This document shows positions 6,927 to 24,958 of a stretch of DNA of 64,000 bases, one piece after another. The translations under genes were made by a program, and so were the position numbers. The first letter of the stretch is position 1, and the number at the start of each line of letters is the position of its first letter. This DNA comes from Methylomonas subterranea. Its GTDB lineage: Bacteria > Pseudomonadota > Gammaproteobacteria > Methylococcales > Methylomonadaceae. The DNA is taken from the NCBI RefSeq assembly GCF_024505185.1, contig NZ_JANIBJ010000004.1, forward strand, positions 1 through 64,000. Reading direction: 5' to 3'. The notes under the pieces are model-generated. The model ran no database searches. It had not been told where the DNA came from and saw nothing but the letters and a program-made list of their open reading frames with translations.

Positions 6927-6929
6927 GTG

Positions 6930-7331
6930 TCACCAAATACAAAGCAAGCCTGGATTGGCTCTCAATTTTTCATCTGCCGTAATCAGCGGCGCTTGATGCG
7001 CAATAGCCGTGGCGGCAATCAATCTATCGCCCGGATCGCCATGTGTCACAATGCCGCTTTCCGCCAGGGCCGCAATCGAAGGCGTCAGTTGCAGAATATT
7101 CAGACCCAGCGATTCAACGATGTCTTCCATGTACGACGTTGGGGTATAGTGTGCAGGTAGTATCAGGCGGTTTTTACGAAACAGCATAGCTATTTCCCAG
7201 AAGCTGATTGCGGCGCAGGCCAGAGAACCTTGTTCCCGTCCTTGATCTAAAGCTTGTTGGGCGGCAACTGTTAAACGGTTTCGGTTATCCGCCCAGAACA
7301 ACAGGACGTTGGTATCACAGATTGTCAGCAT
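6930..7331 (-). CDS. vapC: VapC-family PIN-domain ribonuclease toxin
   Basis: The 133-residue protein begins MLTICDTNVLLFWADN, the first strand of a PIN domain with its acidic residue (D6). It also carries AISFWEIAML with the second acidic residue, and HGDPGDRLIAATAIAHQAPLITADEKL with the third and fourth. PIN toxins of this type cleave RNA, often initiator tRNA or rRNA. The start at 7331 lies inside the end of the antitoxin gene (17-base overlap), the standard antitoxin-first order. The frame is open further upstream, but that would overlap the antitoxin much more. The gene sits between remnants of a defence locus. Confidence 0.88.
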   Translation of the reverse strand: MLTICDTNVLLFWADNRNRLTVAAQQALDQGREQGSLACAAISFWEIAMLFRKNRLILPAHYTPTSYMEDIVESLGLNILQLTPSIAALAESGIVTHGDPGDRLIAATAIAHQAPLITADEKLRANPGLLCIW

Positions 7332-8453: not shown

Positions 8454-9500
8454 GTGAAGCTCTTTTCGGATGCATATACCGACGCGAGAACCTGTCTCGC
8501 TTCAGCAACATTCTCCAGCGAGAAAGGTTGGGACGGAGTTATCAAGGGACTGCGTAGCCTGGTGCGGCAGGATGGCTTGGTAAAGAGTAAGAGTGGCAGT
8601 CTTGGCGACCTGCGAAAACGGATTAAGTCCGACAGCAAAAGCGGTAAGGAGTGCGATGGAATCATCGCGGGCGCGGGCGCCTGGGGCAGCAACGGCGCGG
8701 TAGCGGACGACGCGACGGCCAAGAAGCTGGGTACTCTGAAGCTTTTACGCCATACCTACAGTCTGACCAGTCGGGGCTCGCATCAGGTGTGGATCGTGTC
8801 CACTCCCGCCGCGATGCGTGAATGGCCGGCGGATGCCTATTCAGGCAAGAGTCTTCTCACCGTCAAGGACAGTTTAAGCGATCTGTCCGAGCAGTTCAGC
8901 AGTGAAGCAAAGAAGAACCTGTCCAAGGCGACGCAGGAGGGTGGTGCTTGGTGTCATAAGGCCATGATTGTGGCCGGTGCCTGCCTCAAGGGCAAAGGCA
9001 AGGGGATTGAGATCATCAAGCGTTGGTTTGCCGACGAGGATAATCAGGGCGAAGCCGAGCTTGCCGCCATCGCCACGAAGCTGAACGCCGGCTTCAAGAA
9101 GCTTGCGGGGGCCATGAACAAAGGTCATGTAATCCTGACCGACGTCCCGGCCATACGCGGGGACACCACAAACAGGATTTGGCTGTCCGAAGCCGCCGCG
9201 GCGCCGGGTTCCGCCGCAACCGACGGTATCCGGGTCGTCTACATCGAAAGCGCCTTCTTCGCCGATCAGAACGTGTTGTCGGGTAAGAAGAACTGGACTC
9301 GCATCCTGGTTCACGAAATGACGCATGTGGAACTTGCTACGGCCGACGTCCGTTACGCCCACGATTCGTTGGGAATGAAGCCGGAAAAAAACAACTTCAG
9401 CACAGCCACCTGCCTCACCAATGCGGAAAGTTGGGCGTTTTTTGCCGCTGACTGCGCGGGCGCCGTGGACGTGGGCATTCGGAACAGCGTTCTGAAATGA
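8454..9500 (+). CDS. M35-like zinc metallopeptidase domain protein
   Basis: The 348-residue protein has a C-terminal peptidase signature of the M35/lysine-specific metallo-endopeptidase type: HEMTH near residue 288, followed about ten residues later by TADVRYAH, which supplies the third zinc-ligand aspartate and a tyrosine, then NAESWAFFAA near the end. There is no signal peptide or membrane segment. The N-terminal 200 residues contain no domain I recognise. The start is GTG with a strong GGAGGA site. The downstream lipoprotein-like gene overlaps by four bases. Secreted toxins and type VI effectors use this peptidase fold, so an effector role is possible, but no secretion gene is adjacent. 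Confidence 0.7.
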   Translation: MKLFSDAYTDARTCLASATFSSEKGWDGVIKGLRSLVRQDGLVKSKSGSLGDLRKRIKSDSKSGKECDGIIAGAGAWGSNGAVADDATAKKLGTLKLLRHTYSLTSRGSHQVWIVSTPAAMREWPADAYSGKSLLTVKDSLSDLSEQFSSEAKKNLSKATQEGGAWCHKAMIVAGACLKGKGKGIEIIKRWFADEDNQGEAELAAIATKLNAGFKKLAGAMNKGHVILTDVPAIRGDTTNRIWLSEAAAAPGSAATDGIRVVYIESAFFADQNVLSGKKNWTRILVHEMTHVELATADVRYAHDSLGMKPEKNNFSTATCLTNAESWAFFAADCAGAVDVGIRNSVLK

Positions 9501-9946
9501 TCACGGGTGCATATCGCAAGGCCTTGGCTTTAATCGCCCTGGTAATGATTTTCGCGTCGGCGTGCGAGGCTGATGTCCAGCCCTCCCCGACGCCAACAGC
9601 AAAGGAGAAGCCCATGTCAGGCTTGATGTCCAGCCGCCCGCGCATACCCCAGGTGGCTCCGGTAACGATCGGTGCCGTACGCTACGAACCGACAGTCCAG
9701 ACTAGCACGCCCGGCCCCGAGCATGCGCCGGGCGTGCTCGGCGCCTACGATGCGGCCACCGGTGTTCGGCTTTGGACGCTCCAGGTGTATACACAGCCGA
9801 TCGATACCCGGCTGGAGACCGACGTCCAGGAAGATCATATCAACAGCCTGACCGCGACGCCCGACGGTAAGCTGAGTATCGTCACCGAAACCGGTCTTCG
9901 TTACGAAGTCGATCCGGGCTCGCGAAGCGCTCACGCACTACCTTAG
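9497..9946 (+). CDS. Small lipoprotein-like partner of the M35-like peptidase
   Basis: This 149-residue protein starts with a hydrophobic signal (ALALIALVMIFASAC) whose last residue could be a lipidated cysteine; the lipobox ASAC is weak. A proline-rich stretch follows, then a segment LGAYDAATGVRLWTLQVY that resembles one blade of a PQQ/beta-propeller repeat and a second strand pair near LTATPDGKLSIVTETG. ATGA overlap with the peptidase gene shows co-expression. An envelope protein paired with a peptidase fits an immunity protein, but this is inference; no characterised family was recognised. Confidence 0.6.
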   Translation: MITGAYRKALALIALVMIFASACEADVQPSPTPTAKEKPMSGLMSSRPRIPQVAPVTIGAVRYEPTVQTSTPGPEHAPGVLGAYDAATGVRLWTLQVYTQPIDTRLETDVQEDHINSLTATPDGKLSIVTETGLRYEVDPGSRSAHALP

Positions 9947-10291
9947 CAAGGTTCCGTGCTCAGGCGGTATTGAGTCGTCATGAACGTTTCAACCATGGGT
10001 AAAAGTTTGCCCAAACGTTTAGAGCGGGTTGAATAAGCCGCCCGGCGCCAGATCCGGATTTGAAGCGATGTCGCCGTTGGAGATGCTTTTGTCGTAATTG
10101 TGTTCGCTCTGCGCGCGGAACAGGTGAAACCGGCATAACCGCCTTACATCCTCCTCATCCTCAATAAGTCACGGCGATCCGTTGCGTATGACAGACCGAT
10201 TAATGCCATTGTTATACACGCCTAATTCCACTTGGCGGGCTCCCCGAATGCCGTCCGCCGACCCTCATGATTTACCGGCTATCGCGCGGCC
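9947..10291. other. Intergenic region between lipoprotein and sensor genes
   Basis: Apart from a short protein-like remnant on the minus strand (10019-10135), nothing is recognised. The lower part is low in stops by chance and shows no clear promoter or terminator. Confidence 0.4.
10019..10135 (-). pseudogene. Possible 3' remnant of an unidentified gene
   Basis: On the minus strand, a frame ending in TAA at 10019 encodes about 38 residues, CRFHLFRAQSEHNYDKSISN followed by GDIASNPDLAPGGLFNPL. The composition and its ending read like a genuine protein C-terminus, but nothing upstream is in frame and I cannot name a family. It may mark DNA lost on insertion of the neighbouring peptidase pair. 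Confidence 0.3.
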
Positions 10292-11974
10292 ATGATACGT
10301 AAAGCCCTGCTTTCGCTGCCGGCCAGATTCTTGGTGCCCTTGCTGTTCGGCGTTGCCGCCCTGTTGGCGGTCGCCGTCAATTATCGCTTGCTGGTCGAGC
10401 AATATGCCGAAACCATACTGTTTAGCGAGCAAAAGCGGCTGCGGGAACATTTGCGGATAGAACAAAGCCGGCTGCAACTTGAATGGGTGCGGGGGAACCG
10501 CTTGCAGGCGCAACGGCTGATTTCCGAATTGCCGTTGCTGAGCGGCATCACGCATGCCTGGTTGGTGGACGGAGCGGGCAGTATTGTGGCGGCCTTGTCC
10601 GGGGCGGAAACCGGGCAGCCGTTGAGCGGCATTCCGAGCGAACAGGCGCCGAGTTTACGCGCGGGCATGCCGCCGGAAGCTTTCGCCTGGCATCCCGACA
10701 TTCGTATTCGCGCCATCCCGGGCGAACAGGCCTTGCTGGGCGAAGTCGGCATTCGGCCCGACCTGGTTTTGCGGCTGAGGCTGGACTTGACGCCGGCCCT
10801 GGCCGAACGGTCGGCGTTGGGACAAGCCCATTTGCTCAGGCATGCCGGACTGATCGTAGTACTGACTCTATTGCTGGGCGGTTTGTTGCATGTTTTGTGG
10901 TTTCGCCGCGCCGCGCATCTGACGGCAACCGCCATTGCCATGAGCAAGGGCGATTTAGACTTGCGCGCGCATCTGCGGGGGGGCGACGAACTGGCCGCGA
11001 TTGGCGCGGCGCTGGATAGTCTGGCCGCCAATCAACAACGTTATCAGGCCGAGTTGCGGCAGTTGCTGCGTAAACTGGAAACCCTTGCCAATGCCTCTCC
11101 GGTGTTGTTTTGGTCTTCACGCCCGGACATGAGCTGTAAATGGTTCAATCAACGCTGGCTGGATTTTACCGGCCGCACGCTGGAGCAGGAACAAGGCCAC
11201 GGCTGGCTGGAAAATATACACCCCGAGGATGCCGAGCGGTTTTGGACGCTATATGCCCGTGCCTTCGCGGCGCGCGAGGCTTTTTTCCTGGAACATCGCT
11301 TGCGCCGTCATGACGGCGAATACCGCTGGCTGCTCAATCAAGCCATGCCGCGTTACGACGCCGACGGTCATTTTTTGGGCTATATCGGTTCCTGTCTGGA
11401 TATCAGCGAGCAAACGCAACTGCATCGGCGCCTGGCCGACAGCGAAGCTTATTACCGTTATCTGTTCGAGCACAATCCGGCGCCCATGCTGATATTCGAC
11501 CGGGAAGAATTGCGGTTGATGTCGGTGAATGAAGCGTTTTTGGAACACTACGGCTATAGCCGGGCGGAAGCGCAACAACTCAATCTGACGGATTTATATC
11601 CCGCTTCCGAACAGCCCGCCGTGCTCAGTCTGGCGCGGGACTTGACCTTTGACGGCGAGTGGCACCACCGCAAGAAAAACGGCGACTTTATCGATGTCGT
11701 CACCCACGCCCACGATCTGGTCTATGCCGAGCGCGGTTGCAGAGTCATGGTGATCGGCGACATCACCGAACGCAAGCGGGCGGAATTGATTCTGTACCAA
11801 CGCAATCGGGAACTGGAGCGCTTTAATGTAGCCTCGGTGGACCGGGAACTGGCGATGATAGATTTAAAGCGGCGCATCAATGCGCTAGCGGAGCAACTCG
11901 GACAGTCGCCGCCCTACGATCTGAGTTTTACCGAGAGCGGGATTGACCGGTCCGAATCCGGGCCTTCCTCATGA
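10292..11974 (+). CDS. Membrane sensor with HAMP and two PAS domains, no output domain
   Basis: The 560-residue protein has two transmembrane helices (about residues 10-30 and 190-210) enclosing a periplasmic sensing region, then a HAMP-like linker (about 210-260, AIAMSKGDLDLRAH) and two PAS domains (about 270-385 and 390-505, each ending in DISEQ or DITERK). A short coiled tail follows. There is no kinase, GGDEF, EAL or effector module. The stop overlaps the start of the following histidine kinase (ATGA), so the sensor probably feeds that kinase, perhaps by direct contact. The ligand is unknown. Confidence 0.8.
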   Translation: MIRKALLSLPARFLVPLLFGVAALLAVAVNYRLLVEQYAETILFSEQKRLREHLRIEQSRLQLEWVRGNRLQAQRLISELPLLSGITHAWLVDGAGSIVAALSGAETGQPLSGIPSEQAPSLRAGMPPEAFAWHPDIRIRAIPGEQALLGEVGIRPDLVLRLRLDLTPALAERSALGQAHLLRHAGLIVVLTLLLGGLLHVLWFRRAAHLTATAIAMSKGDLDLRAHLRGGDELAAIGAALDSLAANQQRYQAELRQLLRKLETLANASPVLFWSSRPDMSCKWFNQRWLDFTGRTLEQEQGHGWLENIHPEDAERFWTLYARAFAAREAFFLEHRLRRHDGEYRWLLNQAMPRYDADGHFLGYIGSCLDISEQTQLHRRLADSEAYYRYLFEHNPAPMLIFDREELRLMSVNEAFLEHYGYSRAEAQQLNLTDLYPASEQPAVLSLARDLTFDGEWHHRKKNGDFIDVVTHAHDLVYAERGCRVMVIGDITERKRAELILYQRNRELERFNVASVDRELAMIDLKRRINALAEQLGQSPPYDLSFTESGIDRSESGPSS

Positions 11975-14967
11975 CTATGTCGCGGCGCCAGCGTTACATC
12001 GTTCTGGCCTGTCTAGGCTATGTGGCGCTGGCGCTGGCCTGGATATTTCTTTCCGACCAATTGTTGCCCGCCTTGATCGATATGGCTGCCGTGGTTTGGC
12101 TGTCGTCCGCCAAGGGCGTGTTGTTTGTGCTGCTGAGCGGATTGGGCTTTTATTTCGTGTTGCAGGGGGTGCCGCCCGCCCTTGACGAGCCCGAGGCGGA
12201 TTATTCCCTGCTACAAGTGTTTGCCGCTCAACGCCTGCCCGGCTGGCTGGTGTATGTGCTGATGGCGGCCTTGGTGAGCATGGTGCAAATAGTCTACAGC
12301 CGGATTGCGGAAATATTCGACCATGCGCCGCTGCTGGTTTTATTCATGTTGCCGGTGATAGTTTCCGCCTTGCTGGGCGGACTTTGGCCGGGTTTGCTGG
12401 CGACCGCCGCGGTTGCCGTTGCATCGATCTACAACATGCAACCGGTTGGCCTGTTTGAGATCGGCAACCGGCTCGGCTTGTTTCATTGGAGTCTGTTGCT
12501 TGTTGACGGCCTCACCGTCAGTCTGATCAGCGAAGCCATGCACTCGGCCAGACGCCGGGATGTTCAGCGCAGACGGCAATTGGAACAGGCCTCCGAGGAA
12601 TTAAGCGCTAGCGAAGCGCGGTTTCGGCGTTTGTTTCAGGAAGCGCCGGTGGCCATGGCCTTGATTGACAAACAGCAGTACATCGCGGCGCGTAATCTTC
12701 GCTTCGACTCGCTGTTCGGCTACGAACCGACCGAACTGACCAGTCTGAGGGATTGGTGGCCCAGAGCTTACCCAGACCCGCATTATCGGGCCCAAGTCAA
12801 GGCGGAATGGGTCGGCGGCATGCGGGCGGCGCTCGAGCGGACCGACGATGTGCAGGGCGGCGAATATCGGGTGAGCTGCGCGAACGGCAGCGAAAAGCGG
12901 GTGCTGATTTACGCAATAAGCCTGCTGGATGGCATGTTGTTCAGTTTTTTGGATGTCACCGAATTCCGTCTGGTTGAACAGCGGCTGGGGTTATGGATGG
13001 AATCCTTCGAACAGGCTCAGGTCGGCTTGATCATTTCCGACGCCCAGGCCAACACTATCAGTCTGGTGAATCCGGCTTTTGCCCGGCAACGCGGCTACGG
13101 CCCCCACGAAATGACCGGCATGCCCCTGGCCCGCTTGTTTCCCATGGAACGGCAGAACGATATGCGGCACATCTTGCATGCCTTGAGCAAGAACGCGCAC
13201 GGGGTGTTCGAAACCGAGCATGTCAGAAAGGACGGCAGCCGTTTTCCGGTGCTGGTTGACGTTACGGTGTTGAGAAATCCGCAACAGCAGCCGCTGACGC
13301 GAGTGGCATTCGTGTTCGACTTGACCGAACGCAAGGCCGCCGAGCAAGCCTTGGCGGCGGTCCGGGCCCACTCGGCCGAGCAACAGGCCAGAGCCCGTCT
13401 GGCGCTGTTAAACCAAATGCAGGATGCCAATCTGGCCCGCTTGCGGGCCGAATCCGCCTTGGCCGCCCTGCGGGAAAGCGAGTCCCGCTTCAAGCTGTTT
13501 ATCGATTATGCGCCGGCTGCCCTGGCGATGTTCGATCGCGACATGCGCTATTTGGCCTTCAGCCGGCGCTGGCTGGACGACTATCGATTGGGCGAGCGGG
13601 ATTTATTCGGGTTGAGCCATTACGATGTGTTCCCGGAAATCGATGACCGCTTTAAGGCTATTCACCAACGCGGCATGAACGGCGAAATCGTCCGCATGGA
13701 AGAGGATTGCTTTCGGCGACACGATGGCGGCCAACAATGGTTGCGCTGGGAGGTAAGGCCCTGGTACCTGGATTCCGGCGGCGTGGGCGGCATCGTGATC
13801 TTTTCCGAGGACATCAGCGCGCGGCTGGCGGCCAAATCCGCGCTGCTGGACAGTGAAGCCCGTCTGCGCGCCCTGATCGGCACCATCCCCGACCTGATCT
13901 TTTTAAAGGATGTAAACGGGGTATATTTGTTGTGCAATCCTGTTTTGCAGCGGCTGGTCGGCGCGCCGGAATGCGATATTATCGGTCGTACCGATTTCGA
14001 TTTTTTCGACGCCGATCAAGCGGCGTCCTTCCGCGCCAACGATAAGCGCGCACTCGAGGCCGCGGTTCCGGTGGTCAACGAGGAGTGGCTGACTTTCGCC
14101 GAAGACGGCTATCGCGGCTTGTTCCAAACCGTGAAAACCCGGGTCGAGAATGCGGATGGGCAGTTGATAGGCATACTCGGTATCGGGCGCGATATCACCG
14201 TGTTGCGTCAGGCGGAACAGAGCCTGCGGCTAAGTAATGTCGACTTGGAGGCCAGGGTGGCGGAGAGAACCGCCGAGCTCGAAGCGTTGAATCAATCGCT
14301 GGAAAGCTTTGTGTATTCGGTGTCGCACGATTTGAAGGCGCCATTAAGGGGCATAGAAGGTTACAGTCAATTGCTGAAGGAAGACTATGGCGCCAGCCTG
14401 GACGAAGACGGGCGTTTTTTTATCGCCAACATTCGCACCGGCGTGGCGCGGATGAGCGAATTGATCGACGATCTGTTAGCCTATTCCCGCATGGAAAGGC
14501 GTAAGCTGGAGACGCTGCCGCTGGATTTGGCCGCCTTGATCGAGCAACTGCTGGCGGAGAAAGCCGACGATATCGCGGCGGCCGGCGCCGAAATCGTTAC
14601 CGACCTATCGTCCGTTTACGTGCAGGCCGACAGCAACGGTTTGGGCTTGGTCATGCGCAATTTGTTGGAAAATGCCCTCAAATTCAGCGCCAACAGCCTG
14701 CCGCCCCGCATCGAGATCAGCCTCGGTCGGCGGGGCGACCACGCCCTGGTACGGATTGCCGACAACGGTATCGGTTTCGATATGGCTTATCACGAACGGA
14801 TTTTCGAGATTTTTCAGCGCTTGCACCGGCAGGAAGATTATCCCGGTACCGGCATAGGCCTGGCCTTGGTCAAAAAGGCCATGCAACGCATGGGCGGCGA
14901 GGTGTGGGCCGAAAGCGCGCCGGGCCAGGGGGCGCGGTTTTATTTGCAACTGCCGGCGGTCGCTTAG
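11971..14967 (+). CDS. Multi-PAS membrane histidine kinase
   Basis: At 998 residues, this begins with several membrane helices (about 10-30, 40-60, 88-110, 120-170), then four PAS domains (approximately 210-335, 340-455, 500-620 and 630-750), a coiled-coil with VAERTAELEALNQSLE, a HisKA domain with the phospho-acceptor in VSHDLKAPLRGIEGY, and an HATPase domain with NLLENALKF, DNGIGFD and GTGIGLAL. The dimerisation/catalytic type resembles phytochrome-like kinases that signal to single-domain CheY-like regulators; just such a regulator is encoded next. It overlaps the upstream sensor by four bases. Confidence 0.9.
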   Translation: MTMSRRQRYIVLACLGYVALALAWIFLSDQLLPALIDMAAVVWLSSAKGVLFVLLSGLGFYFVLQGVPPALDEPEADYSLLQVFAAQRLPGWLVYVLMAALVSMVQIVYSRIAEIFDHAPLLVLFMLPVIVSALLGGLWPGLLATAAVAVASIYNMQPVGLFEIGNRLGLFHWSLLLVDGLTVSLISEAMHSARRRDVQRRRQLEQASEELSASEARFRRLFQEAPVAMALIDKQQYIAARNLRFDSLFGYEPTELTSLRDWWPRAYPDPHYRAQVKAEWVGGMRAALERTDDVQGGEYRVSCANGSEKRVLIYAISLLDGMLFSFLDVTEFRLVEQRLGLWMESFEQAQVGLIISDAQANTISLVNPAFARQRGYGPHEMTGMPLARLFPMERQNDMRHILHALSKNAHGVFETEHVRKDGSRFPVLVDVTVLRNPQQQPLTRVAFVFDLTERKAAEQALAAVRAHSAEQQARARLALLNQMQDANLARLRAESALAALRESESRFKLFIDYAPAALAMFDRDMRYLAFSRRWLDDYRLGERDLFGLSHYDVFPEIDDRFKAIHQRGMNGEIVRMEEDCFRRHDGGQQWLRWEVRPWYLDSGGVGGIVIFSEDISARLAAKSALLDSEARLRALIGTIPDLIFLKDVNGVYLLCNPVLQRLVGAPECDIIGRTDFDFFDADQAASFRANDKRALEAAVPVVNEEWLTFAEDGYRGLFQTVKTRVENADGQLIGILGIGRDITVLRQAEQSLRLSNVDLEARVAERTAELEALNQSLESFVYSVSHDLKAPLRGIEGYSQLLKEDYGASLDEDGRFFIANIRTGVARMSELIDDLLAYSRMERRKLETLPLDLAALIEQLLAEKADDIAAAGAEIVTDLSSVYVQADSNGLGLVMRNLLENALKFSANSLPPRIEISLGRRGDHALVRIADNGIGFDMAYHERIFEIFQRLHRQEDYPGTGIGLALVKKAMQRMGGEVWAESAPGQGARFYLQLPAVA

Positions 14968-15030
14968 ATTGATGTTATCGGCGCACAAAAACTTTCAGCG
15001 TTGCCAAGTGCGACGCAAGGCTTGCTACCC

Positions 15031-15456
15031 ATGACTGCCTATCCACCCATTCTGTTGGTCGAGGATAATCCCGTCGATGTCGATTTGACTTTGCGGGCCT
15101 TTAAACGCCGCAAGCTGGCCAATGAAGTATTGGTGGCGCGCGACGGCGAGGAAGCCTTGGCCTGGATTCCGCGCTGGGAAGCCGGCGAGGCCTTGCCGAC
15201 CGTCATATTGCTGGACTTGAATATGCCGCGGGTCGACGGCTTGAGCGTGCTGCGGGTCCTGAAAACCCATCCGCGCCTGCGCAGCGTACCGGTGGTGATT
15301 TTGACCACCTCCAAGGAAGACCGGGATGTCTCAACCGCTTACGACTTGGGGGCCAATTCCTATATCGTCAAACCGGTGGAGTTCGATAAATTCATGGAAG
15401 TGGCCCAGCAAATCGAATTGTATTGGTGCGTGTTTAATGAAATGCCCCGCGTATGA
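15031..15456 (+). CDS. Single-domain response regulator (Rcp1/CheY-like)
   Basis: The 141-residue protein is a lone receiver. The acidic pocket is in LLVEDNPVDVDL, the phospho-acceptor aspartate in VILLDLNMPRVDG, the threonine in ILTTSKEDRD and the lysine in YIVKPVEF. This subtype usually receives phosphate from kinases with the VSHDLKAPLR-type HisKA encoded just upstream. I take the ATG at 15031 as the start; the frame continues to a TTG at 15001. There is no output domain, so it probably acts through protein contact, possibly with the adjacent GGDEF-EAL protein. Confidence 0.88.
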   Translation: MTAYPPILLVEDNPVDVDLTLRAFKRRKLANEVLVARDGEEALAWIPRWEAGEALPTVILLDLNMPRVDGLSVLRVLKTHPRLRSVPVVILTTSKEDRDVSTAYDLGANSYIVKPVEFDKFMEVAQQIELYWCVFNEMPRV

Positions 15457-15471
15457 ACTGTTCCAGGTTTT

Positions 15472-15530
15472 TTATATCCCTCACCCTAGCCCTCTCCCGG
15501 AGGGAGAGGGAACGGAATGCGGAAATTATT
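15472..15530. repeat. CTCTCCC-type palindromic repeat
   Basis: TATATCCCTCACCCTAGC is followed by the hairpin CCCTCTCCCGGAGGGAGAGGG (at about 15490-15510) and then GAACGGAATGCGGAAATTAT. It belongs to the same family as the elements at 3738, 26642, 51255 and 55228. In this copy the purine run GGAGGGAGAGGG lies just ahead of an ATG that is in frame with the downstream gene. Confidence 0.75.
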
Positions 15531-15624
15531 TTTGGCGAAATCCTTATTCGCCCGTTATGTTGATGCTTTTCATGTGTTCCCACGGGCCATGCCTCCGCTC
15601 GGCTCCCGCTCCGGTTGCAGTGCC

Positions 15625-18600
15625 ATGAAAGTGCTGTATATCGAAGATTCGGCCAGCGATGCGGATCTTACCGCCCGCGCGTTAAGAAAGTCGGCTCCCG
15701 GGATAGAGCTGGATATCGCCAACACGCTGGCGGCCGGATTGGCGAGGCTGGCGCAACAGCAAGGCTATGATGTGGTGCTGTCCGATCTGTCGCTGCCCGA
15801 CGGCAGCGGCCTGGACGCCCTGGCCTATGTGCGGGAAAAGCAATTGCCGTCGGCGGTGGTGATAGTCACCGGCTCCGGCGATCAGGACGCCGCGATTGCG
15901 GCGCTGAAGGCCGGCGCCGACGACTATTTGGTCAAGCGGGAGCACTATTTAAGCAGGTTGCCCGCCGCGCTGGAACAGGTGGTGGCGAGGTTCAGGGAGC
16001 ATGTCGATCGCAATCGCCGCATACTCAGGGTACTGCAGGTCGAGCACAATACTTTCGACAGCGATTTGACCCGGCGGCATTTGGCGCAGCACGCGCCGCA
16101 TATCCGCCTCACGCTGGCGGTGACGGCCGATGACGCGTTGCGGCTGATGGGCGATGCCGGCAAGACAACGGATTTCGACGTAGTATTGGTCGATTATCGT
16201 TTGCCGGGCATGGACGGCCTGGAGTTGGCCAAAATTCTGCGGCACGAACGCGGCCTGGATGTGGCCATCGTCTTGGTGTCCGGCCAAGGCAGCGAGGAAG
16301 TGGCCGCCCGGGCGCTGCAGTTGGGGGTGGATGATTATCTGGCCAAGCATGAGGGTTATCTGTACGAACTGCCTGCAACCCTGGAAAAAGTGGCCCATCA
16401 AGTCGAATTGAACCGCGAGCGCGTGATGTTGAAACAGACCGCCAAGCGTCTGTCGCGGGTTTTGGCGGCCAGTCCCACCATACTCTACAACCTGCGATTT
16501 TCGGATCGGCACCTGGTGACCAGCTGGGTCAGCGACAATATTCAGCGTCAGTTGGGATATACCCCGGAGCAGGCCATGGGAGCGGATTGGTGGTTGACCC
16601 ATCTGCATCCGGACGATCTGCCAAAAGTCATCGAATATCAAGCCAAACTGATGAGAGACGGTCACCTGATCCACGAATACCGTTTCAGGCATGCGGACGG
16701 GCATTGGATGTGGGTGCGCGACGAGTTGCGCCTGATCCGGGACGGCGGCGGCGAGCCGATCGAAATCGTCGGCGCCTGGCTGGATATCAGCGAACAGAAG
16801 CGCACGGAAGCCCTGCGTTTGGCCCGTCAGGCAGCCTTGGACAGCATAGTCGCCAATCGGCCGCTGTCGCTGATTCTGGACGATATCGCCCGGCGGGTGG
16901 AGGCCATTTACCCAGACATGCGGGTTTCGGTTTTGCTGGTCGATCCCGTCAACGGCCGACTGACCCATGGCGCGGCACCGAGTCTGCCGGACTTTTACAA
17001 TCAAGCGGTGGAGCAACTGGAGCCGAAGTTGGGGCGGGGTTCCTGCGGAACCGCTGCCTGGTTGGGCGAAGCGGTCATAGTGACCGATATCGAACAGCAT
17101 CCTTATTGGGCGGAGTATCTGGATCTGGCCCGCCGGGCCGGTCTGGGGGCCTGTTGGTCGGTGCCGTTTAAAGACGAGGCGGGGCGGGTCTTGGGCACTT
17201 TCGGGATTTATCACGCCGGCAAGCGCGAACCGATCGCCGAGCAATTGGAGCTGATCGGCGAATTTGCCCGTATCGCCGCCTTGGCGGTACAAAAAGTGCG
17301 CGCCACGGAAACCCTGCGTCAGGCCGCGGCGGTATTCGACTCGACTCGCGAAGGCATTTTGATTACCGATCTGCAACCGCGCATCGTGGCCATCAATCGG
17401 GCGTATACCGAAATTACCGGTTACGGCGAAGCCGAATCCCTGGGCAAAAACCCCAACCTGATCCGCTCCGGCCGCCACGACAAACTGTTTTACCAAAACC
17501 TGTGGCATAAATTGTCGAGCAAGGGGCATTGGCAGGGCGAAATCTGGAACCGGCGCAAAAACGGCGAGTTTTATCCGCAGTGGTTGACCATCAATACCGT
17601 TTTCGACGAAAAGGGTCAGCCGTGCCAATACGTCGGCGTTTTCAGGGATATCTCGGAAATCAAGGAGTCCGAAGCTCGGCTGGAGCGTCTGGCCCACTTC
17701 GATACCTTGACCGATCTGCCCAACCGTCTGCTGGCGCGGTCGCGCCTGCAACACGCGGTCGAGCGCGCCGAGCGGCACGGGCATAAGGTGGGCGTGCTGT
17801 ATCTGGATTTGGATAGATTCAAGACGGTCAACGATAGTCTGGGGCATCCGAGCGGCGATGAGTTGCTGGGTTTACTGGCCGGCCGCCTGAACAAGCGCCT
17901 GCGTGATGAGGATACCCTGGCCCGCCTGGGCGGAGACGAATTCTTGCTGGTACTGGAGCATATCGAATCGCCGGTGACCGCCGCCACGGTGGCGCAATCC
18001 GTCATCGATCTGTTGTTGCCGCCGTTTCGGTTATCCGGCGGGCAGGAGATTTTTCTGGGGGTTAGTATCGGTATCAGCATCTACCCGGACGATGCCGGCG
18101 GCGTCACCGAATTGATACAGCACGCCGATATGGCCATGTATCTGGCCAAACAGGAGGGGCGCAATACCTATCGCTTCCACACCCAGGCCTTGAGCGATGC
18201 CGCCAGCCAGCGGCTCCAGCTGGAAACTCGCTTGCGCCGGGCATTGGCCGACGGCGAGTTCGTGCTGCACTATCAGTTGTTGATCGATGCTCAAACCGAA
18301 GCGCCCATCGGCGTCGAGGCGTTGGTGCGCTGGCAGCCGCCGGCCGAAGCCATGGTGCCGCCCGCCGCGTTCATTCCGCTCGCCGAGGAAACCGGGCTGA
18401 TCGTGCCGTTGGGCGAATGGGTGTTGCAACACGCCTGTCAACAGGGCCGGGCCTGGATCGATGCCGGTTTGCCGGCCATGATCATCGCGGTGAATTTATC
18501 GGTGCGGCAGTTCCAATCCGGCAATCTGGTGGATTTGGTGCGGCGGGTTTTGGCCGATTCGGGTTTTCCGGCCGATCGTCTGGAACTGGAGCTGACCGAA

Positions 18601-19014
18601 GGCATGTTGATGGAGGACGCCGAGCAAACCGTAGTCACCCTGAAGGCTTTAAAGGATTTGGGCATCCGCTTGTCCATAGATGATTTTGGTACCGGTTATT
18701 CGTCGCTGGCCTATCTGAAACGTTTTCCCATCGATAAACTGAAAATCGATCAAAGCTTTGTGCGTGGTTTGTATGACGACCTGAATGACAGGGAAATTAC
18801 CGCCACCATCATCGCCATGTCGCGCATTTTAAAGCTGGACGTCTTGGCGGAAGGCGTGGAAACCGAACAACAGCTGGCCTTTTTGCGGGACAGCGGCTGC
18901 GATTATTACCAGGGCTATTTGTTTCATAAACCGGAAGCCGCCGCCGATGTGGCAAAGCGGCTGGCGGAAACCCGCCGATCAATCCGGATGGCCGTCATTC
19001 CAGACCCAGAATAA
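15625..19014 (+). CDS. Hybrid c-di-GMP enzyme: REC-REC-PAS-GAF-PAS-GGDEF-EAL
   Basis: The protein is 1129 residues from this ATG. Two receivers (about 1-125 and 133-260) keep their phospho-aspartates (LSDLSLPDG and LVDYRLPGMDG). A PAS (about 270-395), a GAF (410-560, with GSCGTAAW) and a second PAS (565-690) follow. The diguanylate cyclase domain (695-855) has an intact GGDEF and an inhibitory-site RDED five residues ahead of it. The phosphodiesterase domain (870-1115) keeps the EAL, NLS, ELTEG, DDFGTGYSS, KIDQSF, EGVET and QGYLF motifs. It may therefore both make and degrade c-di-GMP. The frame continues upstream to 15517 within a repeat, an alternative start that would add 36 residues. Confidence 0.9.
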   Translation: MKVLYIEDSASDADLTARALRKSAPGIELDIANTLAAGLARLAQQQGYDVVLSDLSLPDGSGLDALAYVREKQLPSAVVIVTGSGDQDAAIAALKAGADDYLVKREHYLSRLPAALEQVVARFREHVDRNRRILRVLQVEHNTFDSDLTRRHLAQHAPHIRLTLAVTADDALRLMGDAGKTTDFDVVLVDYRLPGMDGLELAKILRHERGLDVAIVLVSGQGSEEVAARALQLGVDDYLAKHEGYLYELPATLEKVAHQVELNRERVMLKQTAKRLSRVLAASPTILYNLRFSDRHLVTSWVSDNIQRQLGYTPEQAMGADWWLTHLHPDDLPKVIEYQAKLMRDGHLIHEYRFRHADGHWMWVRDELRLIRDGGGEPIEIVGAWLDISEQKRTEALRLARQAALDSIVANRPLSLILDDIARRVEAIYPDMRVSVLLVDPVNGRLTHGAAPSLPDFYNQAVEQLEPKLGRGSCGTAAWLGEAVIVTDIEQHPYWAEYLDLARRAGLGACWSVPFKDEAGRVLGTFGIYHAGKREPIAEQLELIGEFARIAALAVQKVRATETLRQAAAVFDSTREGILITDLQPRIVAINRAYTEITGYGEAESLGKNPNLIRSGRHDKLFYQNLWHKLSSKGHWQGEIWNRRKNGEFYPQWLTINTVFDEKGQPCQYVGVFRDISEIKESEARLERLAHFDTLTDLPNRLLARSRLQHAVERAERHGHKVGVLYLDLDRFKTVNDSLGHPSGDELLGLLAGRLNKRLRDEDTLARLGGDEFLLVLEHIESPVTAATVAQSVIDLLLPPFRLSGGQEIFLGVSIGISIYPDDAGGVTELIQHADMAMYLAKQEGRNTYRFHTQALSDAASQRLQLETRLRRALADGEFVLHYQLLIDAQTEAPIGVEALVRWQPPAEAMVPPAAFIPLAEETGLIVPLGEWVLQHACQQGRAWIDAGLPAMIIAVNLSVRQFQSGNLVDLVRRVLADSGFPADRLELELTEGMLMEDAEQTVVTLKALKDLGIRLSIDDFGTGYSSLAYLKRFPIDKLKIDQSFVRGLYDDLNDREITATIIAMSRILKLDVLAEGVETEQQLAFLRDSGCDYYQGYLFHKPEAAADVAKRLAETRRSIRMAVIPDPE

Positions 19015-19505: not shown

Positions 19506-21731
19506 TCAAATTTGTTGCGGGCCCAACACGCGCAGGATTTCCTCGCAAGTGGTTTGGCCCGCCAGTACCTTGCCGAGTGCATCCTCCACGATGGTTTTAT
19601 AGCCGCTTTTGACGGCGGCCTGCTTGAATTCCAGATGGCCGGCCTGTCTGGCTATCATGTCGCGCAGTTCTTCGTTGGGAATCAGCATCTCGATCAGGCA
19701 AATCCGGCCGTGATAGCCGCTGGAACCGCAGTGTTCGCAACCTTGACCTTTAAACAGCGGTTGGGCGAGGTTGCTGAATAATGGCCCCAGCTGTTCCAGC
19801 AGGGCGGCATCGACCCGATCCGGCGCGCTGCAATGCGGGCAAACTTTACGCACCAGACGCTGGGAGATGATGCCTTCCAGGCTGCTGGCCAGGATGTAGG
19901 GTTTCAGGCCCAGATCGAACAGGCGGGCAATGGTGGCGATGGCCGAGTTGGTATGCAGGGTGGAATAGACCAGGTGGCCGGTCAAGGCGGCCTGAAAAGC
20001 TACTTCGGCGGTCTCCAGATCGCGTATTTCGCCCAACAGAATCACGTCCGGGTCCTGGCGCAGAGTCGCGCGCAAGACCACCGGAAAGGTCAGATCGATT
20101 TTGCCCTTGATGTTAACCTGGCCGGCGCTGTCCAAGTAATATTCCACCGGTTCTTCCAGCGTGACGAAATTTTTGCTGGGGCTGGCGGAATGTTGCAACA
20201 GGGAGTACAGGGTCGAGGTTTTGCCGCTGCCGGTGGGGCCGGTGGCCAGGATGATGCCCTGCGGTTTATTGATCAGCCTCTCGAGTTTCACCAAATCGGC
20301 GCCGGAAAAACCCAATTGATCGATGGGATGGATGGAGGCATTTTGGTCCAGAATCCGCATCACCACCTTCTCGCCGTTCAGGACCGGTAGGGTGGAGATG
20401 CGCAGGTCTATGATGCGGTTGGGGGTTTTTACCGTCACCCGGCCGTCTTGCGGGCGCCGGCGCTCGGCGATGTCCATTTCGGCCATGACCTTGATGCGGG
20501 ATACCAGCGGGCCGTGGAAATGATGCGGAATGTAAATTTTATCTTCCAGAATGCCGTCTATCCGGTAACGCACGGCGATGCTTTTGGCGCGCGGTTGGAT
20601 GTGTATGTCGCTGGCGCCCAGGCGAATGGCTTCCAGGATGACGGCGTTGACCAAACGTATCGCCGGTGGCTCCTCGGTTTGCTTTAGTAGTTGTCCAAGC
20701 GATAGGTTGCTGTCTTCTTCATCGATAACGATTTGTATGCTTTCGAAGGGGTCGCTGGTGCTGACGATTTCGTTGAAGTCGCTGAATGCTTGCATGCCGC
20801 CATAAACTTCCGCCACTTTGCGTTCGATATCCGCGACATTGGCCATCACGACTTTCAAGGGCAGGCCGCTCATAAAGCTCAACTCGGCTTGTAAATCCAG
20901 ATTGACCGGGTCGGCCACAGCAATCAGCAGGCGGCCGTTGTCGATTTTAAGCGGGATGACCGCGTGTTGTTCGCACAACGAATGCGGTATCAGGTTATGC
21001 ACTTCGGATTCGACCTGAAATTCGGCCAGGGCGATTTCCTCCACCAGCAAATCCTTGCGCAAGATCTCGCGGATTACCGCTTCGTCCACCCATTGCCGGT
21101 GCAGAATCAGTTTCAGTACCGAATCGTTGGTGTTTTGCTTGAGTTTGAACAATTCCCGCAGTTGGGCATCGTTGAGCAGGTTTTTGTTGTTCAGCAAGAT
21201 GGCGATCTGGCCGCCGTCCGAGCCCGCCGCTTTTCTGAGTTTGCCGATTTCCTTGGTTTTTTCCTGGTTTTCGAGTTTGAGCTGTTTATTTCTGGCTATC
21301 AGGTCGTATTGCTCCAGCGCCAGGCCGACGGTGACGCGCAAATCGTCGTCGTTCCAGGGTTTTAAAATGAATTTATACACCGCGCCTTCGTTGATGGCGC
21401 CCATCACCGCGCCGGTGTCGGCGTGACCGGTTAGCATGATGCGTATGGTGGCGGGGTGCAGGGCCTTGATGCGCTTTAACAATTCGGCACCGTTCATGTG
21501 CGGCATCCTGTGATCGGAAATAATCAGTTGATAGTCGTTTTCCTTGAACAATTGCAGGGCTTCCTGGCCCGACATGGCGGTATCGATGTGATAGTTCTCG
21601 CGGCGGAATATCCGCCGCAGCGCGCTCAACACATTGGGTTCGTCGTCGACGAACAGCAGGCGGTATTTGTGCTTGCCGCCGGCTTCGCTATCCAGGTTTC
21701 CGCCGGTAAACAGTGCGCTATATTTGGACAC
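19506..21731 (-). CDS. PilB/GspE-family ATPase with N-terminal receiver domain
   Basis: This 741-residue protein fuses a CheY-like receiver (about 20-145: LLFVDDEPNV, IISDHRMPHMNG, MLTGHAD, ILKPW, all key residues present) to a coiled linker, a degenerate MshEN/GspE N-domain (about 165-330) and a complete secretion-type ATPase (about 370-700). The ATPase has Walker A GPTGSGKTSTLY, an Asp box VTLEEPVEY, Walker B DPDVILLGEIRD, a His box STLHTNSA and a tetracysteine metal motif (CPHC...CEHC). Such motors drive type IV pilus or type II secretion assembly. The receiver suggests phospho-control by the kinase encoded three bases upstream. The start is GTG. Confidence 0.9.
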   Translation of the reverse strand: MSKYSALFTGGNLDSEAGGKHKYRLLFVDDEPNVLSALRRIFRRENYHIDTAMSGQEALQLFKENDYQLIISDHRMPHMNGAELLKRIKALHPATIRIMLTGHADTGAVMGAINEGAVYKFILKPWNDDDLRVTVGLALEQYDLIARNKQLKLENQEKTKEIGKLRKAAGSDGGQIAILLNNKNLLNDAQLRELFKLKQNTNDSVLKLILHRQWVDEAVIREILRKDLLVEEIALAEFQVESEVHNLIPHSLCEQHAVIPLKIDNGRLLIAVADPVNLDLQAELSFMSGLPLKVVMANVADIERKVAEVYGGMQAFSDFNEIVSTSDPFESIQIVIDEEDSNLSLGQLLKQTEEPPAIRLVNAVILEAIRLGASDIHIQPRAKSIAVRYRIDGILEDKIYIPHHFHGPLVSRIKVMAEMDIAERRRPQDGRVTVKTPNRIIDLRISTLPVLNGEKVVMRILDQNASIHPIDQLGFSGADLVKLERLINKPQGIILATGPTGSGKTSTLYSLLQHSASPSKNFVTLEEPVEYYLDSAGQVNIKGKIDLTFPVVLRATLRQDPDVILLGEIRDLETAEVAFQAALTGHLVYSTLHTNSAIATIARLFDLGLKPYILASSLEGIISQRLVRKVCPHCSAPDRVDAALLEQLGPLFSNLAQPLFKGQGCEHCGSSGYHGRICLIEMLIPNEELRDMIARQAGHLEFKQAAVKSGYKTIVEDALGKVLAGQTTCEEILRVLGPQQI

Positions 21732-21734
21732 GAT

Positions 21735-22967
21735 TCATCGGCCGGCTGGCAGCGGCAAGCTGATGGATACCAGCGTGCCGACATTCGGTTGACTTTTGAT
21801 TTCCAGGTCGCCCTGGTGGGCTTTGACGATGTTGCGGGCAACGCTCAGGCCCAGGCCCATGCCCTTGCCGACGTCCTTGGTGGTAAAAAACGGATCGAAG
21901 ATATGCGACATGTCGGAGGCGGGTATTCCGCGTCCGTTGTCGCGGATGTCGATTACGATACGATTTTCCCGGCACGCGCTGCGAATACGGATTTTGCCCG
22001 GAGCGGCCATGGCGTCCACCGCATTCATCAGCAGGCTTAAAAATACCTGACCCAGCTCGCCGGGATGGCAGTGCAGCAAGGGCAGTTGGCTCAGGTCCAG
22101 ATAGACTTCGGCCTTATCGCGTAGTTCGGCGGCGGCCACGTTGCAGACTTGCCTGATCAACTGGTTGAGATCGGCATCTTCCCAATCGGCGTCGTTGACG
22201 CGGGAAAAACCCTTTAAGTCCTTGACGATGGCGGCAATACGCTCCGCGCCGCCTATGCTCTCTTGCAGGATGTCTTGCATATCCTGTTGGATAAACGGCA
22301 TATCCTCCCGCTGCCAAGCGGCTTTTAAGCTGCTTAGGTCCGCACAGGTTTGCAGCAGTTCGTCGATTCTGTTCAACGCGGTCAAGTAGCCGGCGGCCGT
22401 GGACAGATTGCTGCGGATGAAACCGATCGGGTTGTTGATTTCGTGGGCGATGCCGGCCGCCAGACGGCCCACGGATGCCAGTTTTTCGGTTTCATAGAGT
22501 TTCAGCTGGGTGTTTTCTATGGTTTTGACCTGTTGCCGGACGCGAATTTCCAGGGTTTCCGCCAGGGCTTTATAGCGTTGTTCCGATTGTTCCAGGGCTT
22601 TATGCCGGCGTTGCAGTTCTTCGAAGTCGGCCTGTTGGGTTTGCAGGTGTAAGTCCGATGCCATCAGGTAGCGGGCATTGGCCCGCAATAATAACCTGAT
22701 TAAGTCGGCGGCGGCCTTTAAACGATTTTGCGGGATGGCGGCGCTGATCTGGCCTATGGGCTCCAACTCGCCGTACAGGGCTAGACTGGGGGCGTCGCCG
22801 GCCAAATCGGCCGCGCCCAGCAGGTATTCGCCGTTGTGATCGGAAACGGCGAAGGCGGTGCCTAGCAGGGCTTGCAAGGCGGATTCCAGCCGTTGTTTGT
22901 CTATTCCGCGCAACAGGTCCGCTAAGCTCAGATCGCGCTCGAAATCGTGCTCGGTGTCGCTGTTCAT
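21735..22967 (-). CDS. Cytoplasmic histidine kinase
   Basis: The 410-residue kinase has no membrane segments. An N-terminal region (about 1-110) of unknown fold with SLADLLRGIDKQRLESALQ leads to a coiled coil (about 110-165), a HisKA domain with the phospho-histidine in GIAHEINNPIGFI, and an HATPase domain with LLMNAVDAM, DNGRGIP and GMGLGLSVA. It lies between the MglA-like GTPase gene (four-base overlap) and the receiver-ATPase gene (three-base gap), so it is the probable kinase for that receiver. Its input may be the GTPase or an internal signal. Confidence 0.88.
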   Translation of the reverse strand: MNSDTEHDFERDLSLADLLRGIDKQRLESALQALLGTAFAVSDHNGEYLLGAADLAGDAPSLALYGELEPIGQISAAIPQNRLKAAADLIRLLLRANARYLMASDLHLQTQQADFEELQRRHKALEQSEQRYKALAETLEIRVRQQVKTIENTQLKLYETEKLASVGRLAAGIAHEINNPIGFIRSNLSTAAGYLTALNRIDELLQTCADLSSLKAAWQREDMPFIQQDMQDILQESIGGAERIAAIVKDLKGFSRVNDADWEDADLNQLIRQVCNVAAAELRDKAEVYLDLSQLPLLHCHPGELGQVFLSLLMNAVDAMAAPGKIRIRSACRENRIVIDIRDNGRGIPASDMSHIFDPFFTTKDVGKGMGLGLSVARNIVKAHQGDLEIKSQPNVGTLVSISLPLPAGR

Positions 22968-23629
22968 GGCGGGCTCCGGTCGATTTGGCCGCTGGCCTGG
23001 GCGATAAAGGCAGCTCGGCTCAAGTCATGCCGGGCTTGAAACTCGAACTCCCGGTCCAGGCTGTCGTATACCTGTTTCAACAAGGCATTAAAGGTTTCCA
23101 CCACGCCGTCGCCCACCAGCGCCGAGCTGAACAGCACGGGCCAGGGCGCGGCTTGCCAGCGCCGCAGGACTTCTTCCTCGCTCAGTATGCCGCTCAAATC
23201 GCGCTTGTTGAATTGCACGACCAGCGGCAAACGGTCGAAATCGATACCGACCCTGGCGGCGTTGTCTTCCAGGTTGGCAAAGGATTCGCCGTTATTGGTG
23301 CTTTGGCCGCGCTGCGAATCGGCGACGAATACCACACCGTCGGCTCGCGACAACACGGCCTTGCGGGTGCTGTCGTGCACTACCTGGCCGGGTACCGTAT
23401 AGAGCTTGAATTTGATCAGCAGGCCGGATGGGGCCTTGAAACCCAGCGGCAGCAAATCGAAAAACAGCGTGCGGTCGTTGGCGGTTTCCATCAGCATGAT
23501 GTCGCCCTTCAGATCGGGGCGCAGGATGTCGTGCAGACGCATCAGGTTGGTGGTTTTGCCGCTCTGCGCGGGGCCGTAATAAACCAGTTTGATGCTTAAG
23601 CGCTTGGATTCTTCGTCGAAAATTGCCAT
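22964..23629 (-). CDS. MglA-like small GTPase
   Basis: The 221-residue protein matches the bacterial Ras-like MglA family. Its P-loop is GPAQSGKTTN and the switch region has ETANDRTLFFDLLPL. LYTVPGQV and DGVVFVADSQRG are family signatures, and NKRDL provides guanine specificity. MglA proteins set cell polarity and direct type IV pili or gliding machinery. No MglB-like activating partner is seen in the window. The gene is first in a tight run with the histidine kinase and receiver-ATPase genes, which suggests the GTPase controls or positions that motor. Confidence 0.9.
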   Translation of the reverse strand: MAIFDEESKRLSIKLVYYGPAQSGKTTNLMRLHDILRPDLKGDIMLMETANDRTLFFDLLPLGFKAPSGLLIKFKLYTVPGQVVHDSTRKAVLSRADGVVFVADSQRGQSTNNGESFANLEDNAARVGIDFDRLPLVVQFNKRDLSGILSEEEVLRRWQAAPWPVLFSSALVGDGVVETFNALLKQVYDSLDREFEFQARHDLSRAAFIAQASGQIDRSPP

Positions 23630-23788
23630 GACATTTCATTGGCCCGTGCCGGAAGGGTGGCAAGATGATAAACCGTCAAGCGCAAGTTCGCTAAAAGAAT
23701 ATGCCGCGGCGGTTGGCGGCAAGCTAATGCCGGCGGCCGGTGGGCCGGCTTTTGCGGAGCGATTCGGCATGCCGCTAGCCCTGCCGGG

Positions 23789-24958
23789 CTATTCGTCGGC
23801 AATGATATCGACCAACAGGATGCGGTCGGCATCCAGTCGCAGAGAGAGGGTTTTGCACAACAATTCGCTGCCGAAGTCGCGGTAGCGCTCCGAGGTGACG
23901 ATGCGGTCCCTGTCGCCGGCGGCTTCCAGCGCCAGCAGTTGAAAAAAATAGGGTCGCCAGGACCAATTGAAGCCTATTTTGCGCGGGTCTGTAAACCATT
24001 GATTTTCCAAGAAACTGAAATCCGGCGACAACTGATTGCCCTGGTTGTCGCACAGATAAAAGCGGATCACATCGCTCTGGGCAAAATTCCAGCTGGCCAG
24101 TTCGTTCAGGTTGAAGTCGCCCTGCAAAACCTCGGCCAAGCGATAGATGAGTTGTTTGGTGGTGCTGATGGCGGTCACTTTGAGCTGCAGTTTCGCCACC
24201 GTATTTTTCAGGAATTTGTTGCGCAGGGAGATAATGTGTTGTTCGTATAATTGCGGCGGCTTGAATTCGGCTTGGGCGGGCGAAAACAGATAGCCCTGCA
24301 TGAACTGGGCTCCGCAGCTGAGGCCGAATAGAAATTCCTCATCGGTTTCCACGCCTTCGCAAATGATTTGGCAGCCGGTGCGCTTGCCCAGCCGGGTCAT
24401 TAGATGCACCACTTCGCTGGCGATACCTCCCTTGGTGGCTTGCTTGAACAGGCGCATGTCGATTTTGATAATGTCCGGCTGAATTGCCATGACTCTTTGC
24501 AATTGCGAGGAGCCGGCGCCAAAGTCGTCCAATGCCACTCGCAGGCCCTGCTTGCGGTAGCGTTTGACGATTTCCTTCAATTTACCCAGATCGGCATGGT
24601 CCTCGGTAATTTCTATAATGATACGCTGCCGGTCGATGTTCAGTTCTTCCAGCATCTTCAGGGTTGGCGATGCGTTTAAATGGCGCAGATTGTTGATCCA
24701 GGCGGCCGATATGTTGATCGCCAGATAGGTGTTGCCGTCCAGTTCGGCGAATTTTTGCAAGGCTTGCCAGCGGACTTGTCTATCCAGCTCCGTGCGTTGT
24801 TTTTCATCCAGGTTCGGCGAGGAAAATAGCGGACCCGCCGAGACGATTTGCTTGTTGGCGTTAAGTTGTCTGGCCAAGGCCTCGTAGCCGATGATTTTGC
24901 CATTGGCCACGCTGACGATGGGTTGGAAGTGCGGGAAGAGGTTTGTTGAGGGTTCCAT
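23789..24958 (-). CDS. EAL-domain c-di-GMP phosphodiesterase
   Basis: The EAL domain (about residues 1-240 of 389) keeps every catalytic motif: YEALAR, AINISAAW, IEITEDHAD, DDFGAGSS, IIKIDMRLF, CEGVETDEE and QGYLFSPA. It is thus predicted to hydrolyse c-di-GMP. The C-terminal part (about 250-389) contains an FYLCDNQGNQLSPDF segment and conserved aromatic residues and resembles the small sensory domain found behind some EAL domains. There is no GGDEF domain or membrane anchor. It is on the same strand as the GTPase gene about 160 bp downstream, so it may belong to the same transcription unit. Confidence 0.9.
   Translation of the reverse strand: MEPSTNLFPHFQPIVSVANGKIIGYEALARQLNANKQIVSAGPLFSSPNLDEKQRTELDRQVRWQALQKFAELDGNTYLAINISAAWINNLRHLNASPTLKMLEELNIDRQRIIIEITEDHADLGKLKEIVKRYRKQGLRVALDDFGAGSSQLQRVMAIQPDIIKIDMRLFKQATKGGIASEVVHLMTRLGKRTGCQIICEGVETDEEFLFGLSCGAQFMQGYLFSPAQAEFKPPQLYEQHIISLRNKFLKNTVAKLQLKVTAISTTKQLIYRLAEVLQGDFNLNELASWNFAQSDVIRFYLCDNQGNQLSPDFSFLENQWFTDPRKIGFNWSWRPYFFQLLALEAAGDRDRIVTSERYRDFGSELLCKTLSLRLDADRILLVDIIADE

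Follow-up and report, generated by a model that had tools for sequence, protein, structure and literature searches.

In Myxococcus xanthus the extension ATPase PilB is recruited by the small GTPase MglA together with SgmX (PMC11580455), and FrzS, a pseudo-receiver protein, helps MglA and SgmX to control PilB localisation (PMC11580455; PMC7668184). Efficient piliation in Acinetobacter depends on a second motor for extension, TfpB (PMC8213720), and two-component phosphodiesterases (PDEs) are also known to act on pilus motors (PMC11656802; PMC3749722). The subject of this report is a triad of adjoining genes in Methylomonas subterranea that encode an MglA-family GTPase, a histidine kinase and a PilB/GspE-type ATPase fused to a receiver domain, the last of these being referred to below as the motor. 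The triad lies in a stretch of 64,000 nucleotides, here called the window, which comprises positions 1 to 64,000 of the forward strand of contig NZ_JANIBJ010000004.1 (NCBI RefSeq assembly GCF_024505185.1).

The Myxococcus system shares with the triad a Group 1 GTPase tied to an extension ATPase and a receiver-type protein (PMC11580455; PMC7668184), but MglA acts there through adaptors, with MglB as its GTPase-activating protein, and mglA does not lie near the genes of its response-regulator partners (PMC4316618), whereas in M. subterranea the GTPase, kinase and receiver-fused motor are encoded in one cluster on a contig with no roadblock match. TfpB of A. baylyi (NF053534) is, like the motor, an additional extension ATPase without an adjacent platform gene in a genome that also encodes PilB; it differs in that the part of the source considered describes neither a receiver domain nor an operon with MglA and a kinase (PMC8213720), and the triad motor forms a separate clade. 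The Xanthomonas pathways PdeK-PdeR-FimX-PilZ-PilB and RpfC-RpfG-PilZ-PilT/PilU bring two-component PDEs of the EAL or HD-GYP type to bear on pilus motors, but by way of adaptor proteins, and the portions of these sources drawn upon mention neither a small GTPase nor a motor receiver (PMC11656802; PMC3749722). The actinobacterial conservons CvnA-D resemble the triad in that a histidine kinase gene stands beside that of an MglA-family GTPase; they differ in their Group 2 GTPase (GTPGQ), their MglB-like and CvnC proteins and the lack of a response regulator (PMC4316618), whereas the triad has TVPGQ, no roadblock match on its contig and a receiver-motor as output. MshE-type ATPases, which bind cyclic di-GMP (c-di-GMP), share the MshEN plus T2SSE architecture (PMC4624772) but differ in their c-di-GMP motif, which is absent from the motor (12.1 bits, as against 78.4 for MshE of the same genome). 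Among the literature matches listed, all under open licence, represented in part and including PMC4624772 and PMC10333796, there is no description of a receiver-fused PilB/GspE protein or of a triad operon, and the words MglA and receiver occur zero times in a review of PilB (PMC11656802).

The triad and its conservation

The host genome comprises 4.4 Mb in 104 contigs, and the window lies on the contig designated C4. The preliminary description of this DNA placed four same-strand genes at 19506-24958, and prediction of open reading frames (ORFs) together with Pfam confirms that all four are intact and on the minus strand:

19506..21731, minus strand: receiver-MshEN-T2SSE ATPase (the motor), 741 residues, GTG start, by Pfam
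21330..21656, minus strand: receiver (CheY-like) domain, motor residues 26-134
20793..21035, minus strand: MshEN domain match, motor residues 233-313, lacking the c-di-GMP motif
19530..20681, minus strand: T2SSE ATPase domain, by Pfam, with 14 motif positions
21735..22967, minus strand: histidine kinase, 410 residues, by Pfam and NCBIfam
22653..22910, minus strand: predicted N-terminal domain of the kinase, a small alpha/beta fold of GAF/roadblock type, about residues 20-105, by structure prediction
22964..22967, minus strand: four bases, ATGA, shared by the stop codon of the GTPase gene and the start codon of the kinase gene, from the sequence
22964..23629, minus strand: MglA-family small GTPase with Group 1 signature (R53-T54, TVPGQ, NKRD), 221 residues
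23789..24958, minus strand: EAL phosphodiesterase with a YkuI_C domain, 389 residues

The tight spacing that had been reported was also found, the ATGA overlap being followed by a gap of three bases (21732-21734) between the stop codon of the kinase gene and the GTG with which the motor begins. The EAL gene lies 159 bases upstream of the GTPase gene and, because of this distance, may be a transcription unit of its own; a promoter and terminator scan gave counts no different from those in shuffled sequence.

The grouping of the three core genes exceeds chance. The triad is carried by 23 distinct genomes (the total after four double counts were dropped), including records of Methylomonas, Gallionella and the Rhodocyclales, and order and strand are the same in all 23; the 15 carriers with a G handle are spread over eight family codes. 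The GTPase and the receiver-motor fusion co-occur. Among 61 relatives the GTPase is present in six, all of them among 37 genomes of the same genus, and a search with the motor receiver returned the same six above 200 bits and, at 109-119 bits, three more. Among 369 genomes drawn evenly from the class, the GTPase was found at E <= 1e-30 in nine and above 350 bits in seven, and the full-length fusion at E <= 1e-165 in exactly those seven, host included. A search of 398 genomes of the phylum with the fusion added three more carriers, each of them a member of the same class with the triad present; both fusion searches scored no more than the two best candidates of a genome, at a strict E-value, and other kinds of receiver-ATPase fusion may escape. 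Conservation of the neighbours in relatives, on which the preliminary description had made its proposal depend, thus holds for the triad. An assembly artefact as the source of the fusion, a concern raised at the same time, is rejected: receiver and ATPase recur in one frame in 22 of the 23 genomes, also at L037, where the frame is cut late by a contig end, while at G016/L033 the contig ends within the motor frame after 165 residues.

Six GTPase-derived peptide patterns, which relatives may escape, matched 43 loci in a collection of species genomes. Twelve proteobacterial loci (L032-L043; GTPase identity 64-92%) all have the triad on the same strand, two of them cut by contig ends, and 30 others (L044-L073; identity 37-45%; with Chloroflexota in nearly all record titles and Gracilibacteria in one) lack a triad within the DNA examined, some of these stretches being short. 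A plasmid collection yielded a single relative, 42.4% identical, in Deinococcus. Outside the 23 carriers stand L044-L073, the weak match L074 and the genomes G096 and G395. The GTPase of G096 (228 bits) lies near kinases and a receiver-HD-GYP gene and is 56% identical over 181 residues, close to the values for carriers G583, G779 and G548 (57-58%); G395 has a GTPase match of 112 bits and short pieces of GTPase and ATPase. In G395 (L095) these pieces lie beside a kinase/HD-GYP set, and in G096 (L094) the GTPase has such a set nearby but lacks the kinase-motor pair, two arrangements that are possibly stages in the loss of the triad.

The three proteins

The preliminary description credited all four proteins with complete catalytic motifs; for the triad this is borne out by alignment, whereas the EAL protein was judged by eye from its sequence. 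Motif positions were picked after the first alignments had been seen, and on their conservation all three triad proteins look catalytically alive. Mean column identity is 77% for the GTPase and 61% for the kinase (13 sequences each) and 72% for the motor (11 sequences).

The motor matches Response_reg (93.4 bits), MshEN (67.7 bits) and T2SSE (421.9 bits, cut-off 24.9) in Pfam. A receiver that can be phosphorylated has an acidic pair, an aspartate acceptor, and threonine and lysine as switch residues, and all of these are present in the motor receiver, where D29, D30, D73, T101 and K124 are identical in 23 of 23 genomes. In the ATPase, all 14 motif positions, including Walker A, the catalytic glutamate and the His box, are kept in the 22 readable genomes. 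The motor falls below the equivalog models of PilB (TIGR02538, 536.8 bits, cut-off 675.65), GspE (TIGR02533, 530.4 bits, cut-off 630.25) and TfpB (NF053534, 443.2 bits, cut-off 850), and in a FastTree tree of ATPase cores, built from 14 of the 23 triad motors, nine other extension-type ATPases and PilT, with PilU left out, the triad motors form one clade (support 1.000) apart from PilB, GspE, MshE and TfpB.

The kinase, cytoplasmic to judge by eye as the preliminary description had it, has HATPase_c (93.1 bits) and HisKA (26.9 bits, exactly at the cut-off) matches, and its best NCBIfam match, NF038348 (T2SS_HK, 240.7 bits), covers residues 110-406 only and is below the cut-off of 450. Ten of its 11 motif positions are invariant in the 23 genomes, and the eleventh, G345, is kept in 22 and replaced by alanine in one.

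The GTPase matches Arf in Pfam (28.8 bits), and with a profile of its family the four solved MglA sequences recovered score 175-186 bits and the next best match 28.1. All 13 motif positions are identical in 23 of 23 genomes. MglA Group 1 is defined by an arginine beside the G2 threonine and by the G3 motif TVPGQ (PMC4316618); R53-T54 and T78, P80, G81 and Q82 are present in all 23 and V79 in the 13 sequences aligned, and because of these two features the protein is placed in Group 1. According to the same source, Group 1 neighbourhoods vary widely, with occasional PATAN proteins, and an MglB gene within four genes is typical of the MglA family (390 of 449) without being a requirement (PMC4316618). 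The host genome has four Robl_LC7 matches, on C1, C25 and C32.

A putative c-di-GMP branch

A c-di-GMP input had been proposed from the EAL gene, whose product matches EAL (161.7 bits) and YkuI_C. This proposal survives in part and in a broader form. The host EAL gene or its counterpart adjoins the triad in three of 23 carriers (the host, G008 and G014) and other PDE-domain genes, mostly receiver-HD-GYP, do so in 15 more, such that BLAST, supplemented by Pfam for part of them, finds a same-strand PDE-domain gene no more than 3 kb upstream in 18 of 23; HD-GYP accounts for 13 and EAL for five. Direct binding of c-di-GMP by the MshEN domain of the motor, in contrast, is not supported. This domain scores 12.1 bits with the c-di-GMP motif NF053729, against a cut-off of 38, where MshE of the host, the positive control, scores 78.4, the relative at L035 21.9 and PilB of carrier G289 16.5; c-di-GMP is therefore probably no direct input through this domain. 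The genome of G289 has a single HD_5 match, and this adjoins the triad. An HD-GYP gene beside the triad would be expected in 0.034 genomes and was observed in nine of 11, or nine of 15 once G008, G014, G009 and G029 are added, an expectation that assumes even gene spread, was made post hoc on related genomes and is not used as support.

In an unrooted tree, receivers at these loci sort by output into 23 of motors, 14 of HD-GYP proteins and eight small ones (supports 0.965, 0.985 and 0.947, respectively), and in another the 23 triad kinases are split from 23 sister kinases (those above 290 bits with one query) with support 1.0. Both splits fit a dedicated link from kinase to motor, and as far as trees can tell they have the look of two insulated, duplicated pathways. 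On host contig C36, a lone receiver gene (L028:4793-5347) stands directly before the TfpB gene (5416-7197), and its product falls among the small receivers that accompany the triad in other genomes, a split version of a receiver with an orphan motor.

Which machine the motor serves

The host genome encodes seven extension-type ATPases and has five T2SSF platform genes. Four of the ATPases adjoin a platform gene and three are orphans, namely the triad motor, TfpB on C36 (891.3 bits) and a GspE-like protein on C3. Platform genes were checked in ten carriers, and G289, 1.9 Mb in size and 99% complete, is the only one in which the T2SSF matches, two within one frame, amount to a single gene. This gene follows directly after a PilB that exceeds its cut-off (864.0 against 675.65 bits), and two T2SSE matches of PilT size lie elsewhere on the PilB contig. 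Because the sole platform gene adjoins PilB, the fusion in G289, if it is a motor, probably serves a type IVa pilus; this reasoning from gene content assumes that no divergent platform protein escaped the search. The earlier suggestion that the motor acts on machinery encoded elsewhere is supported by this one carrier.

Proposed mechanism and alternatives

The reading that we favour, though we regard it as evenly poised between right and wrong, is that the triad is a dedicated, phosphorylation-switched control unit for an orphan accessory type IVa pilus extension motor. The kinase would phosphorylate D73 of the ATPase-fused receiver, a phosphotransfer that we infer together with its sign, and this would alter either the engagement of the hexamer with the pilus base or ATP hydrolysis, such that a single phosphotransfer could switch pilus extension without a transcription step. 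The GTPase may determine where or when this happens: it could gather kinase and motor at a single pole, or it could act on a putative partner, the N-terminal domain of the kinase. A sister two-component branch, consisting of a kinase and a receiver-HD-GYP protein in 13 of 23 carriers and represented by the EAL gene in the host species, would lower c-di-GMP simultaneously through its predicted PDE activity.

In favour of this reading stand the constant order and strand of the triad, the co-occurrence of GTPase and fusion, the retained motif residues, the separate motor clade, the receiver and kinase splits, the upstream PDE genes, the single-platform carrier G289 and the precedents of PilB recruitment in Myxococcus and of TfpB; the pairwise distances of the three proteins also correlate in 16 of the 23 genomes (r 0.72-0.82, 0 of 2000 permutations). 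Several findings weigh against it. The 23 genomes are dependent samples, six being of one genus and some forming near-identical pairs, and the permutation test ignores shared phylogeny, neighbours being co-inherited even without direct interaction. G096 has the GTPase, but the 20 kb examined there contain no triad partners, and an upstream PDE gene is absent from five of 23 carriers (G009, G029 with about 1.1 kb of contig upstream, L036, L042 and G308). No roadblock (Robl_LC7) match is present on C4, the host genome being the one searched. The motor misses the curated cut-offs of PilB, GspE and TfpB alike. Nine of the ten carriers checked, the host with its five T2SSF genes included, have more than one platform gene, and the pilus target therefore rests on one small genome, which itself has a third extension-type ATPase of 807 residues with two c-di-GMP motif matches (L099:3797-6220, contig C9).

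One alternative is that control of the motor really lies with the GTPase, with MglA-GTP recruiting the motor to a pole as in Myxococcus, the kinase and receiver doing no more than tuning the process and the receiver serving mainly for docking. The control of PilB localisation by MglA through SgmX and FrzS (PMC11580455; PMC7668184) is a precedent for such an arrangement, and the GTPase has the highest mean column identity in the triad. The acceptor and switch residues of the receiver are nevertheless kept in all 23 genomes, unlike those of FrzS, and a kinase with intact motifs always stands between GTPase and motor; we consider this alternative unlikely, if by no means negligible.

A related possibility concerns the N-terminus of the kinase. 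AlphaFold2 predicts residues 1-106 (13 sequences, mean pLDDT 85.4) as alpha-beta-beta-beta-beta-alpha, and VIA-align matches the model to GAF domains (Z up to 7.3), to Ragulator (Z up to 6.4) and to MglB of Thermus and Myxococcus (Z 5.5-6.0; best rmsd 2.5 over 75 aligned residues at 16% identity), values below 8 that may reflect merely a shared arrangement and between which GAF and roadblock folds tie. Foldseek gave no match at E <= 0.001, and Pfam, applied to this region in 13 members, returned three implausible families in one member each and neither roadblock nor GAF. From the predicted fold it is possible that this is a GTPase-reading domain. That it is a reduced roadblock/GAF-type fold that reads or switches off the adjacent GTPase, giving a relay from GTPase to kinase to motor within one operon plus a c-di-GMP-destroying branch, is a tentative proposal to which we attach rather little confidence.

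The motor could instead drive type II secretion or an MSHA-like machine and not a type IVa pilus. MshEN and ATPase domains are common to type II secretion, MSHA-like and pilus machines, the GspE and PilB models score the motor alike (530.4 and 536.8 bits), and one of the five T2SSF genes of the host, on C23, stands amid pseudopilin-looking frames without an adjacent ATPase. The orphan ATPase on C3, however, exceeds the GspE cut-off (652.3 against 630.25) and is a more obvious partner for C23, and G289 has the triad with a single T2SSF gene that adjoins PilB. For the N-terminal part of the motor, the PilB model gives the top score (61.6 bits, against 23.8 for TfpB and 18.0 for GspE), an unfair comparison since the GspE model starts later. 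On balance a secretion or MSHA-like role seems quite doubtful. The C23 cluster (L096, approximately 8902-17649) comprises the T2SSF gene and the pseudopilin-looking frames, again with no ATPase gene adjacent, and the C3 ATPase is at L026:9000-10706.

It is improbable that the fusion is no motor alone and that it mixes as a subunit with PilB, as brake or starter. The three extension-type ATPases of G289 for one platform gene would suit such a role, and mixed oligomers of extension ATPases are treated as an open question in the PilB review (PMC11656802), but the 22 readable genomes retain all 14 motif positions of the ATPase, a conservation that would be needless in a pure brake. Chance neighbours or a local rearrangement, although carriers are just six of 37 genus-group genomes and the EAL neighbour recurs in three of 23, are very close to negligible and are rejected for the triad, the EAL gene excepted, as 23 carriers keep order and strand and the 15 with a G handle span eight family codes.

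Surroundings of the triad

At 15517-19014 the window encodes a protein of 1165 residues with two receivers and PAS, GAF, GGDEF and EAL domains by Pfam. This gene, an EVE-domain gene and a DUF900 hydrolase gene flank the triad in G008 and G014 as well, and were not found in the G009 stretch. G+C is mostly 54-60% over positions 1-24 kb of the window, with one bin at 50%, and falls to 35-52% over positions 28000-64000, a long run of mostly plus-strand genes that looks like a separate, possibly acquired cluster.

Significance

Gallionella, Ferrigenium and Methylomonas, which are among the named carriers, inhabit surfaces and gradients, and adaptors, c-di-GMP and localisation are known means of steering pilus extension motors. 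A motor that has its own phosphorylation domain and is encoded alongside its own kinase and a GTPase of the polarity type would offer a minimal system for the question of how signals reach pilus extension, and the triad, which comes from harmless environmental bacteria, supplies defined proteins for phosphotransfer and ATPase assays.

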